Positions 34,501 to 41,011 of a stretch of 64,000 nucleotides of DNA are shown here, in pieces. The stretch is from Oscillospiraceae bacterium (GTDB lineage Bacteria; Bacillota; Clostridia; Oscillospirales; Acutalibacteraceae). The DNA lies in contig CADCLS010000004.1 of assembly GCA_902802375.1 (NCBI GenBank), positions 35,378 to 99,377 of the forward strand. Reading direction: 5' to 3'. The position numbers and the translations under genes were made by a program. Every line of letters starts with the position of its first letter. The stretch's first letter is position 1. The notes below the pieces were generated by a model. That model was not told where the DNA came from. It saw only the letters and a list, made by a program, of their open reading frames with translations, and did not search any database.

Positions 34501-35682
34501 TTGGGTGCATACGGCTATTTACTTGCTATTGCATTAATACTTATTTTTACAAAACTATTCGGAATTGTCTCCAAAAAGGTGCATATGCCACAGGTTGTAG
34601 GCGCGCTGATTGCCGGCGTGCTTTTAGGACCGAGTGGATTAAGGCTTTTGACCGAGTCGGATTTTTTGCTTAAAACCTCCGAAATCGGCGTTATTATGCT
34701 TATGTTCACCGCAGGTATAGATACCGATATATCCGAGCTTAAAAAAACCGGCGGCGCGGCGCTTGTTATTGCAATTTCAGGTGTTTTTGTTCCTATTCTC
34801 GGCTGCGGCGGCACTTACTTCCTTTTTTTCGGAAACGGTTTTGATTTTCATAATTTTTTGTGTTCAGCTTTTGTAGGCGTTGTGTTTGCCGCAACCAGCG
34901 TTAGTATTACGGTTGAAACGCTAACCGAAATGGGAAAAATCAAGTCCAATGTAGGCGCCACACTGCTTGCCGCCGCAATTATTGACGATATAATCGGTAT
35001 TGTTGTATTAAGCGTGCTTACCGGTATCAGTGATAAAAGCGTAAATCCGCTTTTTGTAACGCTCAAAATCCTGCTGTTTTTCGTGTTTACCGCCGTTGTA
35101 GGCTTTATTGTTTATCATATTTTCAAGAGAATTGCCATTCATCACGCGCATAACAGAAGAATTGCCGTTTGGGCGTTGGCATTTTGCCTTATAATGTCCT
35201 ACTGCGCCGAAAGATTTTTCGGAGTTGCGGATATAACCGGCGCTTATTTTGCCGGCGTAATCCTTTGCAACCTTACAAATATGCGGCAGTATGTTGCAAA
35301 AAAAATAACGGTCGCCTCTTATCTCTTCTTCTCCCCGATTTTCTTTGCCGGCATAGGGCTTAGAACCGACCTATCAGGTATTACACCTAAAATTATGCTT
35401 TTTGCGGCAGTACTTCTTATTATGGCGGTGATAACCAAAATTATCGGTTGCGGCGCCGCCGCAAGACTATTCAAAATGTCGAATAAAGACTCTATCAGGG
35501 TAGGCATCGGTATGGTGGCGCGTGGAGAGGTTGCGCTTATGGTAGCGCAAAAAGGCATAAACGCTGGATATATAAAGGCGGAAATACTGCCGGCAATAGT
35601 TCTTTGCATAATACTTGCCGCGCTTATAACACCTATACTTCTTAAGCTTGCATACAAAGAAAAGCAGGCGCATAATGGATAG
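34501..35682 (+). CDS. Cation:proton antiporter (CPA2/Kef-like)
   Basis: Monovalent cation/proton antiporter of the CPA2 family. The start is a TTG at 34501 with AAAGAGG upstream. About 12 membrane segments in 393 residues; characteristic pieces are KKVHMPQVVGALIAGVLLGPSGL near the N-terminus, the ion-site helix AAIIDDIIGIVVLSVL (adjacent acidic residues), and VGIGMVARGEVALMVAQKG near residue 345. There is no C-terminal TrkA-N regulatory domain, unlike KefB/C. Ion specificity is unknown. Confidence 0.92.
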   Translation: MGAYGYLLAIALILIFTKLFGIVSKKVHMPQVVGALIAGVLLGPSGLRLLTESDFLLKTSEIGVIMLMFTAGIDTDISELKKTGGAALVIAISGVFVPILGCGGTYFLFFGNGFDFHNFLCSAFVGVVFAATSVSITVETLTEMGKIKSNVGATLLAAAIIDDIIGIVVLSVLTGISDKSVNPLFVTLKILLFFVFTAVVGFIVYHIFKRIAIHHAHNRRIAVWALAFCLIMSYCAERFFGVADITGAYFAGVILCNLTNMRQYVAKKITVASYLFFSPIFFAGIGLRTDLSGITPKIMLFAAVLLIMAVITKIIGCGAAARLFKMSNKDSIRVGIGMVARGEVALMVAQKGINAGYIKAEILPAIVLCIILAALITPILLKLAYKEKQAHNG

Positions 35683-36148
35683 CAAAAGAAAACGCATACG
35701 CCTTGCAAATTATGACTATTCGAGCTGTGGTTTATATTTTATAACGATTTGCACCAAAGATAGAAAATGTATATTATCAAGAATAGTAGGGCAAGATGCC
35801 TACATCTTGCCTAAAGTAGAACTTACGGATATTGGAAAAACCGTTGAGAAACACATAAAACTAATACCCGGTATTGATAGCTATGTGATTATGCCAAATC
35901 ATATCCATTTAATTATAATAAAATCAAAATCCAAGGACGGCAAGATGTGGGCATCTTGCCCTACAAGTATTTCGTGTGATATCAGGAGTTTTAAGACAGT
36001 TATAACGAAGAACGTCGGTGTTTCTGTTTTTCAGCCTCGTTTTTTTGACCACATCATAAGAAATGAGCAGGACTACATCGCACATTTAGAGTATATAGAC
36101 GAAAACCCGCAAAAGTGGGTTGAAGGCAAAGATGAATATATAGATTAA
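35675..36148 (+). CDS. REP-associated tyrosine transposase (RAYT, Y1 family)
   Basis: Single-strand-specific Y1 transposase relative that acts on REP palindromes rather than moving an IS. The start is set at the ATG at 35675, giving 157 residues and an 8-base overlap with the antiporter gene. The HUH motif is HIH at residues 76-78 (VIMPNHIHLIII) and the catalytic tyrosine is probably Tyr134 in IIRNEQDYIAHLEY. N-terminal NYDYSSCGLYFITICTKDR is typical. Two inverted copies of a 26-base REP-like palindrome lie in frame inside the gene. A terminator follows directly. Confidence 0.9.
   Translation: MDSKRKRIRLANYDYSSCGLYFITICTKDRKCILSRIVGQDAYILPKVELTDIGKTVEKHIKLIPGIDSYVIMPNHIHLIIIKSKSKDGKMWASCPTSISCDIRSFKTVITKNVGVSVFQPRFFDHIIRNEQDYIAHLEYIDENPQKWVEGKDEYID
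35786..35811 (+). repeat. REP-like palindrome, copy 1 (inside the RAYT gene)
   Basis: GTAG, G, then GGCAAGATG, a 4-base loop CCTA and CATCTTGCC. The 9-bp stem is perfect. It is read in frame as VGQDAYILP of the RAYT. The second copy at 35939 is in opposite orientation and differs at one base. Confidence 0.8.
35939..35964 (-). repeat. REP-like palindrome, copy 2 (inside the RAYT gene)
   Basis: The reverse complement matches copy 1 at 25 of 26 positions (one loop base differs). GGCAAGATG at 35939-35947 pairs with CATCTTGCC at 35952-35960, followed by CTAC. It is read in frame as GKMWASCPT of the RAYT. Confidence 0.8.
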
Positions 36149-36174: not shown

Positions 36175-36624
36175 TTAGCTATACATATTGTTAACTTTCA
36201 TATAATCATATATGCTTTTGCCGTGATTTTGTTCCTGTGCCTGAATTGCGTTTATAGCTTTTCTTGCGTTTTCATCGGAAAACTCAAACACACAAGTATC
36301 GTAAAGGTGCGAAGCGTGCTTTTCGGCAGTAAGCAAATCTGAACACAAGAAGCTGTCATTCTGCTTGTCGTCAGTGTTCTCATTTCCGTAGGTGGCAGTA
36401 AATGTCGGCTGACTACCTGAGCTTTGCGGTTGCTCTACTGTTCCCTGCTCCATTTTCTCAAAAATCTGCAAATGCTGCTGCTCTGCCTGTGATAGATTGC
36501 TGAAAAGATTTTTAAGCTGTGGGTCGCGTGCTGAATCGGAAGCATTTTTGTACTTCTTTATGCAAAGCTTTTCCGCATCCTTCATATCTTTAAGGAGTGT
36601 TTGTTCTTTTTGTGTTAATGTCAT
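36175..36624 (-). CDS. CotF-like spore coat protein (ferritin-like)
   Basis: 149-residue mostly helical protein resembling CotF-family spore coat proteins of Clostridia. The start is set at the ATG at 36624; a GTG at 36633 overlaps the GAGGTGA ribosome binding site. It consists of two helical hairpins (residues about 5-60 and 90-145) joined by a Gln/Ser-rich linker; Glu and His pairs in SQAEQQHLQIFEKM and QAQEQNHGKSIYDYM suggest a ferritin-like fold. It is the main sign in the window that the organism sporulates. Expression is probably from a sporulation sigma factor, but I could not identify a promoter. Confidence 0.72.
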   Translation of the reverse strand: MTLTQKEQTLLKDMKDAEKLCIKKYKNASDSARDPQLKNLFSNLSQAEQQHLQIFEKMEQGTVEQPQSSGSQPTFTATYGNENTDDKQNDSFLCSDLLTAEKHASHLYDTCVFEFSDENARKAINAIQAQEQNHGKSIYDYMKVNNMYS

Positions 36625-36677
36625 TTTTATCACCTCGTGGATAGTATTGACATTAACACATTATTTATACAGTTTTT

Positions 36678-38243
36678 TTAGAAATTGTCGCCATCCGCAT
36701 CAATAAATTCGCTTTCGTCTGCGGTGATTTCTTCTCCCGTATTTTCTTCAGTTGTGATTTGGTCCGTTTCCGGCTCGGATATATCGGAAACATCTATTTC
36801 ATCAAAACTGCCGGTTTCAGTTCCTAAAAGCTCGTCAATCTCAAGATAATCTTCATCCTGAGCATTATTAGTCTTTTTTGTTGCCCTAATAATCAGCAAA
36901 ACCAAAAGTATAACCACAAGGATTACAGCGACAAACAAAAGCAGAAGTACGGTTTTTGCCTGAAGACTTAAAGCATTAAACCTGCCAATAAGGTTTTGGG
37001 ACTGCTCCTCGGACACATCAGCCTGCTCTGCCTGCTTTGCAATAAACATAGGCTCACGCTGAATGGTGTTATCAGCGGCGTCAAGTCTGTAATAATCATT
37101 TTTTCCGCCGAAATAACAGTTGAATACATAAAAATCCGTTACTTCCTCATCGGCATATTTATAGCACTTAACACTCTTACCGCCAAGCTCATATTCGCCC
37201 GGAACAAAATGCGTATCTACATTTATATTTTGTTCAAAAGGCTCGATTATATAAAGTCTGTTGCCGGATTTTAAGCAGTCAAGCCGCTTGAATTCGCCGT
37301 TTTCGTCAGAGGTGAAAAACCCTCCGTTTTTTCCTTCGGCATCAACGGCAAAGTAAAGCTGATATTTCCCCGACTTATCATTTAATATTTCTATTTTTGA
37401 GCCTTTACGCTCAACAGATGACCTCTCAAATCCCTCTATCTCACCAATATCTTGAAGCTCAGTTTTAAGAAAGTAATCTGCACCGTCTACAACTATGAGA
37501 GTCGGGTTGTTTTCTCGCTCCTCTTTTTCTGCGGCGGCGGTTTCTTCAACTGTCATCCGTTTTACTGTAACGGTATACACTTTCTTAGCGCCCGAAGCGG
37601 CGGTAACAGTTAAAGCAAACTTATTCTCGCCCTCTTTAAGATTAAATGTGCCGGCACCCGTAACATTAGAATCCCCTGCGGCGGCATTTGCCTTAATTGT
37701 GATTTTCTCGGTCTGATTTTTAACCGATGCGGTATAGCTTGTAGTTCCCTGCTTAAACGCCGGACTAAGCTTACCCTCGCTTAGATTTATAGACCCTAGA
37801 TTTGCGTTCGATGAAGGCTGAGGTGTGGTAACTGTAACCGAAGCGCCGGCAGAGGCTGTACCTTTATCTTCGTTCAATCCTGAAAAGGATGACAACTTAC
37901 AAGAAATAGAGCCTGAACCCGCCGCTATAGCTTTAAATGTTATTGTTATTGTATCTGCCTTTTTAGCATTAAAACTCCGCGAGACATTAACATTTTCTCC
38001 ACTGGCTGCCGTATCGCCGCTACTTGATATATATTGCAAAACAGAAGTATTATACTTTATACTTCCTGTTATACTCATCATAGTATCATACCCAGCAGAA
38101 TACACAATTGTAACCTTGACTTGTTCGCCAACATTAACACTTTTCTTATTAAATGATATTGTGGCGCTATCTGCAAAAGCAGAAAAGCTCAAGGCACCGC
38201 ACAGTATAATCACTGAAATAATAACACAAATTGTTCTTTTCAT
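36678..38243 (-). CDS. Membrane-anchored cohesin/cadherin-like surface protein
   Basis: 521 residues. A signal peptide ends at SAFA (residue 24). Residues about 26-140 resemble a cohesin domain (SVNVGEQVKVTIVYSA, SIKYNTSVLQYISSSG, ITITFKAIAAGSGSISCKL). Residues about 147-230 are a cadherin-like beta-sandwich domain of the PF12733 kind (INLSEGKLSPAFKQGTTSYT... KKVYTVTVKR). An unrecognised extracellular region follows, then one transmembrane helix near 430-453 and an acidic cytoplasmic tail of about 68 residues. It is 17 bases downstream of a gene for a dockerin-bearing glucosaminidase and probably tethers it. Binding is inferred from the domain pairing. Confidence 0.8.
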   Translation of the reverse strand: MKRTICVIISVIILCGALSFSAFADSATISFNKKSVNVGEQVKVTIVYSAGYDTMMSITGSIKYNTSVLQYISSSGDTAASGENVNVSRSFNAKKADTITITFKAIAAGSGSISCKLSSFSGLNEDKGTASAGASVTVTTPQPSSNANLGSINLSEGKLSPAFKQGTTSYTASVKNQTEKITIKANAAAGDSNVTGAGTFNLKEGENKFALTVTAASGAKKVYTVTVKRMTVEETAAAEKEERENNPTLIVVDGADYFLKTELQDIGEIEGFERSSVERKGSKIEILNDKSGKYQLYFAVDAEGKNGGFFTSDENGEFKRLDCLKSGNRLYIIEPFEQNINVDTHFVPGEYELGGKSVKCYKYADEEVTDFYVFNCYFGGKNDYYRLDAADNTIQREPMFIAKQAEQADVSEEQSQNLIGRFNALSLQAKTVLLLLFVAVILVVILLVLLIIRATKKTNNAQDEDYLEIDELLGTETGSFDEIDVSDISEPETDQITTEENTGEEITADESEFIDADGDNF

Positions 38244-38260
38244 AAAATACCCCCATATAC

Positions 38261-39751
38261 TTATAGCGTTCTTAACCCTAACAAAAAGGCAGTCATAATT
38301 GCCAAATCTTTTCCGTTAACTGTGTTATCTCCACTTACATCCGCCGCTTCCAGTTTTTCACTGTCTAATTTTCTTAATCCCAGGAGATAAGCTTTTAGTA
38401 TTGCCAAGTCCCTACCATTTACCTCGCTGTCCCCACTGATATCGCCTTTCCTTTTACCCGTTGTAACCGCTGGTGGCTCAGGTGTAACCTGAGAGGCGGT
38501 ATAGTCCGCCATAGTAGGTGCGGCGCAAACGCTTGCAGGCATACTGCTGTATACCGGTATTTTGAAAGTGAGCGCGCCGTCTTTTTTTTCAATATAAGCA
38601 GGTCTTGCAAAATATGCTTTTGTGCACTGGTCATAAAGAGCTGAAGCATATTGATGATTGCCGCTTCCGAACACATTAAAATCCATATAGTAATATGTAT
38701 CCTGACCCGTTCCGACATATCCTGAACCGTACTTTACGGCGCCGCCTACAATAGCCTTCTCAGGTGAATTCCAGCCGTTTTCTTTTGCGTATTGAAGACC
38801 GTTCTTTATAATATTATCACCGTATGCACCGTAGTTAAAATAATTATAATATTCTTCATAGCCTTCATATTTGCCGCTTATAATATCGCTTTTTCCATTA
38901 ACACCCTGCTCAGTGATGATAGTAGTCGCAATAATATACGGGCTTACCTTCGACTGTTTTGCCGCTTTCATAATTATATTTACATAATCATCAGTATCAA
39001 GGAAAGTACCTTTTACAATAGTTCTGACACCTGCTTCGTTTTGAGTGGCAGCATCGTACGACTGTTCCATAAAAGTAAAAATATTAGGATATGATGCTTT
39101 TGCCGCAGTCACCGTCAGTCCGTTTCTCGGGTCCATAAAGAAAGCTATGGCTTTACGAGAGGCGAAGGTCCACCTTGTCTCTCTTGTGTCAACATCGCCA
39201 GCCTTGACGGCTTTTGACCTTGGGTCACGCCACTCAAGACCGTAGGTAAGCTCAACCCATTTTTTAGTTTTCGTCATATCCTTAGCGTTATATTCAAGGT
39301 TTATTGCATTATCAAGGCTCATATTTACGGGGTCTGCCTTAAACACCCAATTAGGATATGCGTTATGTATGGTTTTAAGTGCTTGACGGTAGCTTTCAGG
39401 AAAATTCAAAAGGTTTTTTTCAAAATCTGCATCATACGGTGCAGGTGTTGTTTCCTCAACATATTTACCGTAAACATATCCGGTTTGGCTACCGTAGGTC
39501 ACATTATACCAAGTAGTGCCGCTACCCTTGACCGCTTCGTTTCCTATTACTTTGCCGATTATTGTTACAATAGCACCGGCATTGAAAATATTAATTGTTT
39601 CAGAATCAACTGTTGTGGGCTTGTTTCGCATTTTAACACTGTCTGCCGTTATTCTGCCTTGTTTGGTTTCCGCAAATGTTTTAGGCACAAAAACCGACAA
39701 AAAAAGAAGAGTTATGCACAAAATGATACTTAAAAGTTTCTTTTTCTGCAT
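38261..39751 (-). CDS. Secreted SH3/glucosaminidase with C-terminal dockerin
   Basis: 496 residues from the ATG at 39751, which has AGAGGTGGAG upstream. After the signal peptide (to about residue 28) come a bacterial SH3-like domain (about 30-100, ADSVKMRNKP and GSQTGYVYGKYV), then a GH73-type N-acetylglucosaminidase domain (about 110-400); the likely catalytic Glu is in IATTIITEQGVNGKS, followed by the NYFNYGA part. Residues 436-496 form a type I dockerin with two F-hand repeats, DISGDSEVNGRDLAILKAYL and DVSGDNTVNGKDLAIMTAFL. It should cut peptidoglycan glycan strands. First gene of a two-gene operon with the cohesin protein. Confidence 0.87.
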   Translation of the reverse strand: MQKKKLLSIILCITLLFLSVFVPKTFAETKQGRITADSVKMRNKPTTVDSETINIFNAGAIVTIIGKVIGNEAVKGSGTTWYNVTYGSQTGYVYGKYVEETTPAPYDADFEKNLLNFPESYRQALKTIHNAYPNWVFKADPVNMSLDNAINLEYNAKDMTKTKKWVELTYGLEWRDPRSKAVKAGDVDTRETRWTFASRKAIAFFMDPRNGLTVTAAKASYPNIFTFMEQSYDAATQNEAGVRTIVKGTFLDTDDYVNIIMKAAKQSKVSPYIIATTIITEQGVNGKSDIISGKYEGYEEYYNYFNYGAYGDNIIKNGLQYAKENGWNSPEKAIVGGAVKYGSGYVGTGQDTYYYMDFNVFGSGNHQYASALYDQCTKAYFARPAYIEKKDGALTFKIPVYSSMPASVCAAPTMADYTASQVTPEPPAVTTGKRKGDISGDSEVNGRDLAILKAYLLGLRKLDSEKLEAADVSGDNTVNGKDLAIMTAFLLGLRTL

Positions 39752-39784
39752 CAATCTCCACCTCTTTTTGATAAATATACAATT

Positions 39785-39813
39785 ATTATATATTTTCACA
39801 GGTATTATGTCAA
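39785..39813 (-). promoter_or_regulatory. Promoter of the dockerin/cohesin operon
   Basis: Minus-strand TTGACA (39813-39808) and TATAAT (39790-39785) with a 17-base spacer, about 34 bases before the start codon. A consensus vegetative promoter. Confidence 0.85.
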
Positions 39814-39826
39814 CCGCCAAAAATTG

Positions 39827-41011
39827 TTACAGTCTTCTTGCCTCAAGGTAAAAACGCTTGTCAAGGGCGTGTCCCATAGAAAAAGTCTTTCTCGGCAGGC
39901 AACCGTCTTTTATAACAGCGCGGAAAAGCTCTTCCTTTTTCATTCCGTCAAATATAAATCCGAGCGTACTGTCGGCACTTCGGGCAATTCTTTCGGTAGA
40001 CTCTATGCCGTGAATATAGTCGATTTTAATGCCTGATTTTTTTGTATCAAGGAAATCCTGCAAAGCGGCTACCGGCAAAGTATAATCGGAATTGATTTTA
40101 ATCTCTCTTTCTCCACCCGAAAATATGCACTTGAACTTGTGCGTATATTTTCCGCCTTTTTCGGCACTGTAACTTAGAAATTCATTTATAACACTATCGG
40201 CGTTTACCCCGAAAAGCACCCTGTAAATCGGCTCAAAATTTATAGCAGGTGAGTGGATATTAACGATTTCCACAAGGGCATATCTATCCTGCTCTCTTCC
40301 GCTTTTCTCATAAATACTTTTGGCCGCGGCAAGAGAATGGTTGCCGTCGCCAACACAGAAAAGAAGATTCCCATTCTTTTTTTCTATATCAAAAAGAAGC
40401 TTTGATACCGTATCGGCGGTTTCCCCTTGAACCTTGTAGCCTGACACACTTCCGGCATTACCGAAAAGATTAAAATCATAAAGCTTTTCAAGTGTTTTTT
40501 CTTCAAGAAAATTCATAACGCTGTTTTCTTTATCGTCAAATAGTAGCATTATATGCGGCAACTCAAGCGCCGCACCGCGTCTTATTTGGGCGCGCGGAGG
40601 TATTCTTTCAAGAACAGTCTTTTCGGTTGAACGGATTTTACCGACACCGCCCACAGTATATGTATACTCTTTAAGGTCTATTTTCCCTATAATTCCCGTG
40701 CGGACAATACCGTCAGACTGCACGCGCCGAGTATATATAAAGCTATCCTTAACCTCACGAAAGACGCCGTCATTAAGATATTTACGCATATTAGCGTTAA
40801 TGCGGTTTATATATTCGGTATTATCATCTTTAAGGTATATTTCGGGCAAAATAAGGTCAAGAGCCGAAGGGTATCCGTTGGTATATTCTTTTGCCGACTC
40901 CCAGTATTCAGGCTCGCTTGTGAACTGGTCGCAAGCGATAACCGCAAATCTATCTTCATTTTCTTTAGGCAAAAGTATATCCGCCGTAGTAAAGCATAAT
41001 TCCTTTTTCAT
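39827..41011 (-). CDS. DUF1015 family protein
   Basis: 394-residue protein of the DUF1015 family, found next to serine-pathway genes in some Clostridia but with no firm function known to me. The start is set at the ATG at 41011, just after the lipoprotein stop; no good ribosome binding site is visible, so it may depend on coupling. Conserved pieces are FAVIACDQFTSEPEYW, FCVGDGNHSLAAAKSIYEK (a characteristic GDGNHS motif) and PVAALQDFLD. Last gene of the long nusA-operon run. Confidence 0.87.
   Translation of the reverse strand: MKKELCFTTADILLPKENEDRFAVIACDQFTSEPEYWESAKEYTNGYPSALDLILPEIYLKDDNTEYINRINANMRKYLNDGVFREVKDSFIYTRRVQSDGIVRTGIIGKIDLKEYTYTVGGVGKIRSTEKTVLERIPPRAQIRRGAALELPHIMLLFDDKENSVMNFLEEKTLEKLYDFNLFGNAGSVSGYKVQGETADTVSKLLFDIEKKNGNLLFCVGDGNHSLAAAKSIYEKSGREQDRYALVEIVNIHSPAINFEPIYRVLFGVNADSVINEFLSYSAEKGGKYTHKFKCIFSGGEREIKINSDYTLPVAALQDFLDTKKSGIKIDYIHGIESTERIARSADSTLGFIFDGMKKEELFRAVIKDGCLPRKTFSMGHALDKRFYLEARRL

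Follow-up and report, generated by a model that had tools for sequence, protein, structure and literature searches.

A conserved gene pair of Oscillospirales that may hold a predicted cell-wall glucosaminidase at the membrane through a cohesin-dockerin contact

Research on cohesins and dockerins treats them as the clasp of cellulosomes, and their presence is used as a sign of a cellulosome. A survey lists single-cohesin proteins of unassigned function, as well as single-cohesin transmembrane (TM) proteins with unclear partners (PMC11557425; this and the papers below are cited from the parts of their text that were available). Pairwise interactions between dockerin/cohesin enzymes are mentioned in PMC12997984, and Table 3 of PMC4081043, with its columns inferred from the tabs, gives one dockerin-bearing GH73 enzyme per strain of Ruminococcus albus. 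At the cell wall, the SagB-SpdC complex of Staphylococcus aureus releases nascent peptidoglycan (PMC12272431). Here we describe two adjoining genes, P-A and P-B, in a stretch of 64,000 nucleotides from an Oscillospiraceae bacterium (GCA_902802375.1, contig CADCLS010000004.1, positions 35,378 to 99,377 of the forward strand), hereafter the window. P-A is predicted to be a secreted glucosaminidase with a C-terminal dockerin, and P-B a membrane protein with a single cohesin. We estimate a probability of about 0.7 that the two form a dedicated cohesin-dockerin tether, which would hold a glycan-cutting wall enzyme at the membrane. Among the titles and abstract openings listed for the cohesin/dockerin literature, with most subscription papers outside the scope, we recognized no paper on this pair, and the available parts of PMC5814915 and PMC5748583 held nothing decisive on it.

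The P-A gene and its parts are as follows.

38261..39751, minus strand: P-A gene, 496 aa, secreted SH3 / GH73 glucosaminidase / dockerin protein; the ATG at 39751 is taken as the likeliest start codon
39671..39751, minus strand: signal peptide, residues 1-27, cleavage probably after TFA, read from the sequence by eye
39455..39640, minus strand: SH3_3 domain, residues 38-99, Pfam 30.0 bits (cut-off 27)
38636..39181, minus strand: predicted SagB-like GH73 catalytic region, residues 191-372, by NCBIfam SagB and the solved homologues 4pi7 (Autolysin E) and 6u0o_B
38909..38911, minus strand: Glu281, presumed catalytic acid, aligned with the Glu of 4pi7 that is Ala in 4pi8
38279..38449, minus strand: type I dockerin, residues 435-491, two near-symmetric calcium-loop repeats

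A sequence-only reading of this DNA had given P-A the same order of signal peptide, SH3 domain, GH73-type glucosaminidase and type I dockerin with two repeats, and matches to Pfam, NCBIfam and solved homologues bore it out. Pfam Dockerin_1 (PF00404) scored 50.1 bits on residues 435-491 (cut-off 22.9), which places the C-terminus among the type I dockerins. The NCBIfam SagB model matched residues 191-372 with 70 bits, far under that exception model's own cut-off of 425, and the Pfam Glucosaminidase model was absent from the P-A matches at E<=1. The enzyme region aligned with the solved 4pi7, 6fxo (Bifunctional autolysin), 6fxp and 6u0o_B. When a P-A profile was compared with solved chains, the top match was 6u0o_B (E 6e-22), which carries the PDB label 'LYZ2 domain-containing protein' and which we take to be SagB of the SagB-SpdC structure. 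Glu occupied the position of Glu281 in 50 of 51 aligned proteins, the window included. Homology to solved GH73-type glucosaminidases and the catalytic Glu together put P-A in the SagB-like part of GH73, and we conclude that it is a predicted SagB-like GH73 glucosaminidase that looks built for cutting the bacterial cell wall. At E<=0.001 P-A had no second match in the window genome over its enzyme region, and its three remaining matches were dockerins. The exception at the Glu281 position was genome G013, whose dockerin-bearing glucosaminidase homologue (L113) also lacks, by eye, the SH3 domain and is possibly an enzyme turned structural protein.

P-B begins 17 bases downstream of P-A and is composed of the following parts.

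36678..38243, minus strand: P-B gene, 521 aa, cohesin / cadherin-like / membrane-proximal domain (MPD) / TM / acidic tail
38172..38243, minus strand: signal peptide, residues 1-24, read from the sequence by eye
37884..38162, minus strand: cohesin domain (PF00963), by Pfam, genome search and family profile
37557..37769, minus strand: cadherin-like beta-sandwich (PF12733), residues 159-229, Pfam 37.3 bits (cut-off 24.2)
37032..37538, minus strand: MPD, residues ~236-404, by family alignment
36879..36959, minus strand: TM helix, residues ~429-455, by the hydropathy peak in the second half and the alignment; a single helix by eye
36681..36878, minus strand: acidic cytoplasmic tail, 66 residues with 24 acidic and 2 basic, unconserved in sequence

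The cohesin predicted earlier at the N-terminus of P-B held up against profiles. PF00963 scored 31.1 bits on the isolated domain (cut-off 24.1) and 28 bits, again above the cut-off, in a six-frame search of the genome. A scan of full-length P-B with hmmscan did not report the cohesin, a result that we take as a false negative because the isolated domain, the genome search, the family members and the matches to solved cohesins were all positive. A profile of the 30-member P-B cohesin family matched the solved cohesin 3l8q (E 5.4e-10), the NagJ cohesins and others, and 28 of the 30 members matched PF00963 at E<=0.01, so that the family belongs with the cohesins. The earlier outline of signal peptide, cohesin, cadherin-like domain, TM helix and acidic tail stood in all these parts and overlooked the MPD, a conserved extracellular domain of about 165 residues. 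Compared with PDB sequences, the MPD gave no match at E<=10, and among 29 members no Pfam family was matched by more than one at E<=0.1.

The acidic tail had been proposed to report on the state of the wall. P-B would then be a sensor that relays the docking of the enzyme or of a glycan product to the cytoplasm, which we consider very improbable. Acidic residues outnumber basic ones in the tails of 42 of 52 P-B proteins with a TM helix, and the MPD is conserved enough for a ligand domain. On the other side, 10 of the 52 have no acidic excess, median pairwise identity of the tails is 17%, their lengths run from 4 residues up, leaving some proteins almost tail-less, and a Pfam scan found no signalling domain in the tail of the window protein. 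We therefore set a signalling tail aside as unsupported.

The two genes keep company across genomes, a point for which the earlier reading had proposed a survey of relatives. Within the genus of the window, P-B was found at E<=0.001 in 32 of 36 genomes, and in 30 of these 32 the next gene upstream, read from the same strand, encodes a dockerin. The gaps measured 2-59 bases in 29 loci and 177 in one; start codons were picked by rule, making these lengths approximate, and in G021 a contig edge leaves only the dockerin end of the upstream gene. Neither gene was found in G014, G017 and G029, of which G014 is 64% and G017 79% complete. For the order and the phylum we located domains with profiles built from proteins of the P-A/P-B family, which also served for the co-variation analysis below. 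Across the order, the MPD profile matched 20 of 394 genomes, the window genome included. Besides the window this gave 20 loci, of which the contig-cut G161, G109 and G241 were left out. Of the remaining 17, 16 have a GH73-dockerin gene as their immediate upstream neighbour: all 13 loci from other genera and 3 of the 4 from the window's genus. Pfam confirmed each of the 16 dockerins. The exception is in G394, which has two copies; the first of them lacks such a neighbour and shares the gene context found in the window, beside ribF- and truB-like genes.

Across the phylum the MPD was found in 6 of 398 genomes, two already known and four new. All four new ones, which lie outside the order, have a dockerin gene directly upstream of the MPD gene, and in three it encodes a GH73-dockerin protein. 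These three belong to a single family, from a different order within the class, and by our own profiles have a GH73-cadherin-dockerin gene upstream. The fourth, G662, belongs to another class and carries the following genes.

L188:4107-7871, plus strand, and L189:3-563: SpoIID-SH3-dockerin gene, then cohesin-MPD gene, then second cohesin-MPD gene

Its upstream gene encodes a 688-residue SpoIID-family (PF08486) SH3-dockerin protein and precedes a cohesin-MPD-TM gene. This cargo has a different fold and presumably the same target as GH73. The second cohesin-MPD gene apparently spans the ends of the single contig. When 12 pair loci were compared by eye, the flanking genes differed, which speaks against a conserved third gene; therefore, the pair itself looks like the conserved unit.

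At the loci read, MPD-bearing anchors with an adjoining dockerin gene always stood beside glycan-cutting enzyme families. Cohesin-cadherin-cadherin-TM proteins without an MPD (one in G050 and two in G027; L171, L175, L176) adjoin dockerin proteins with Ig-like, SH3, LRR_5 or GLUG repeats. Three cases are few, and they no more than hint at a link between the MPD and the wall-enzyme role.

The glucosaminidase had also been called the only dockerin partner in sight, which proved wrong for the genome as a whole. Above the Pfam cut-offs the window genome has 5 cohesins and 10 dockerins, numbers that rule out a closed one-pair system in this organism. P-B could then be a general surface anchor, a single-cohesin scaffoldin like ScaE for which the glucosaminidase is one cargo of several. 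We judge this unlikely, even with ten dockerins at hand here and 21-37 matches in five same-genus relatives. The P-A dockerin differs from the other dockerins of the genome at the presumed recognition positions: its repeats read VNGRDLAI and VNGKDLAI and form a class of their own, whereas a VNNKDLTR-type motif is common to the dockerins of contigs C4 (at C4:7249), C12 (three), C14 and C8. These positions, whose numbering we assume, are mostly near-symmetric between the two repeats of a dockerin and vary among species. Separate specificity classes within the window genome are likely on this pattern. The VNNKD dockerins sit on LRR_5, transglutaminase-like or uncharacterised proteins, and could be served by a second single-cohesin protein with, by eye, a C-terminal TM helix (C10:11398-12321 of the window genome, G000; the loci of this whole set, cohesin protein included, are L077, L078, L080, L082 and L083). 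We scanned 8 of the 9 other dockerin proteins, leaving out C6:14473 and covering C12:39078 only along the fetched stretch. They showed LRR_5, Transglut_core, one cohesin-dockerin protein or no enzyme-naming domain, and no plant-polysaccharide enzyme was found among them. Two contigs of metagenome-assembled genomes (L121, L122) hold extra glucosaminidase copies with a dockerin of the VNNKD class and no P-B seen adjoining; the enzyme has therefore also joined the larger dockerin set.

A general anchor also fits poorly with genomes that have no other cargo above the cut-off. We examined 47 pair-bearing genomes with both Pfam families (the window genome and 30 from the same genus, together with G049, G051 and 14 of 17 others), and 11 of them have a single dockerin and a single cohesin by Pfam at E<=0.01, both in the pair. 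These are G001, G003, G010, G013, G015, G022, G049, G159, G177, G215 and G319, six of which (G049, G215, G001, G013, G159, G177) are at least 90% complete. The sole cohesin lies under the curated cut-off in G015, G049 and G159. Relaxing the threshold to E<=1 adds 2-4 weak dockerin fragments in G001, G010 and G015, all below the cut-off, and in G319 our own profile sees a second cohesin-like stretch within the enzyme protein. In the other 36 genomes there are more modules, or Pfam misses one of the pair's two. The core of the earlier idea, a membrane-tethered autolysin pair, is supported by the cohesin profiles, by the side-by-side homologues and also by the sole-pair genomes, with the reservation that the pair is not alone in the window genome.

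Co-variation of the domains suggests, short of proof, that the dockerin and the cohesin bind each other. We compared distance matrices for five domains, dropping 5 of 49 P-B genomes in which a domain was missing or truncated (G002, G008, G015, G021, G273). For 32 genomes of the genus, dockerin and cohesin distances gave a partial correlation of 0.30 (permutation p 0.001). The dockerin gave -0.03 with the GH73 domain of its own protein, and 0.09 and 0.08 with the remaining domains of P-B. Over 44 genomes, dockerin and GH73 correlated at 0.04.

Several observations weigh against a dedicated tether. Over the 44 genomes the dockerin-cohesin value fell to 0.23, barely above those for the MPD (0.18) and the cadherin-like domain (0.17), and within the genus pairs without presumed contact correlated more strongly, namely cadherin-MPD (0.59, same protein) and GH73-cadherin (0.39). 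The partial correlations are of modest size and come from a comparison of ten pairs; the permutation leaves phylogeny in, with relatedness only partly controlled. The fit of the cohesin to its Pfam model is also modest, 2 of the 30 family members missing it at E 0.01, and the other cohesins and dockerins of the window genome could cross-react with the pair. G033 has the pair and two cohesins elsewhere; its P-B escapes the Pfam model, and a further dockerin passes only with frame neighbours summed. In G050 one dockerin and one cohesin adjoin with other cargo, and in G059 one of each lies on different contigs. G013, a sole-pair genome, has a P-A without the catalytic Glu, and therefore simple hydrolysis by P-A cannot be the role there.

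P-B also occurs without an adjoining dockerin gene, in G008, in G002 and in one of the two G394 copies. Upstream of it lies, by eye, a DUF1015 neighbour in G008. The glucosaminidase of G002 (L116) has three SLH repeats by Pfam in place of the dockerin; an apparent dockerin match on this enzyme vanished when the profile was rebuilt without G002. In G035 (L174), which has no P-B, choline-binding repeats take the place of the dockerin. Because these dockerin-less enzymes of the same genus carry another anchor, we count them in favor of a tether.

In the mechanism that we infer, P-A would be exported and freed from its signal peptide, and its dockerin would dock on the single cohesin of P-B, which a single TM helix anchors in the membrane. 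The stalk of cadherin-like domain and MPD would keep the enzyme near the membrane's outer surface, and there its GH73 activity could shorten or free glycan strands emerging from their synthases. The pair would then do the job of SagB-SpdC of Staphylococcus with unrelated tether parts. For action on the nascent strand, near the site of glycan synthesis, we give somewhat less than even odds.

The tethered enzyme could instead serve feeding or attack, digesting the peptidoglycan of other gut bacteria as a minimal analogue of a cellulosome. Known cohesin-dockerin systems are mostly for digestion, and several of the named relatives were, by their record titles, obtained from rumen, reticulum or horse faeces. 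We nevertheless find such a use quite improbable. The best solved-enzyme match of the P-A profile, 6u0o_B, is presumably SagB, an enzyme of the cell's own wall. With two stalk domains between cohesin and membrane, of sizes that we assume, reach through a thick wall seems doubtful. The pair is also retained in genomes of 1.2-1.3 Mb without any other detected dockerin (G215, G013).

The layout of the locus is consistent with transcription from one promoter upstream of P-A, with some room for a second start. We scanned positions 36300-40000 and found 18 promoter-like sites where 8.7 were expected, the sole 12/12 match being the following.

39785..39813, minus strand: promoter-like site upstream of P-A, 12/12 sigma-70-type consensus, spacer 17 bases

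The sequence-only reading had placed both genes, 17 bases apart, under one promoter. The distance is as stated, and the scan found no minus-strand match in the gap or just ahead of P-B. The claim of a single promoter is weakened by an 11/12 match inside P-A (39000-38973, minus strand), because of which P-B may have a separate transcription start. The genome measures 1.68 Mb in 24 contigs (99.86% complete), and the window lies on its contig 4. Just downstream of the pair lies a gene for a Coat F domain protein (36178-36633, minus strand). Positions 35651-36148 (plus strand) encode a protein without a Pfam match at 1e-3, by eye presumably a REP-associated transposase.

Taken together, this lone, conserved pair seems to connect a membrane anchor with an enzyme for the wall of the cell itself, and it does so in several families and also outside the order. 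A wider reading gives cohesin-dockerin docking a housekeeping role of its own in Bacillota, the calcium-dependent and exchangeable coupling of glycan-strand cutters (GH73, SpoIID-family) to the membrane by an MPD anchor, independent of cellulosomes and possibly older than they are. We put this forward tentatively and would sooner bet against it. If the tether is real, single-cohesin TM proteins left without a partner in the survey would gain a partner and a job, calling cellulosomes from the co-presence of a cohesin and a dockerin would require caution, specificity studies would have naturally diversified one-to-one pairs at their disposal, and there would be a second design of membrane-bound peptidoglycan release complex.

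Judged by its domains, the pair is neither a cellulosome nor a SagB-SpdC system. P-B has one cohesin and is no multi-cohesin scaffoldin, and by Pfam the pair includes neither a plant-polysaccharide enzyme nor a carbohydrate-binding module. As in SagB-SpdC, where a SagB-family GH73 glucosaminidase acts at the membrane with a partner protein (PMC12272431), P-A would work there with a partner. SpdC belongs to the CAAX protease family and is integral to the membrane (PMC12272431), whereas P-B has one TM helix by eye, no CAAX-protease-family match in Pfam at E<=1, and appears to bind through cohesin and dockerin. R. albus likewise has a GH73 enzyme with a dockerin, in a species called cohesin-deficient, and the available part of that paper mentions no cohesin neighbour (PMC4081043). 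The glycosidase pairs of Clostridium perfringens share the pairwise use of cohesin and dockerin outside a cellulosome, and the NagJ cohesin 2jh2 is similar in profile. As we understand them, those are secreted glycosidases joined to each other, with no membrane tether of a wall enzyme (PMC12997984, in part). The nonSLH-anchoring scaffoldins are built like P-B, with a single cohesin and a TM helix at the C-terminus, and are treated in a cellulosome context (PMC11557425); P-B instead has its likely partner next door, a wall enzyme, and in its stalk there are a cadherin-like domain and the MPD.

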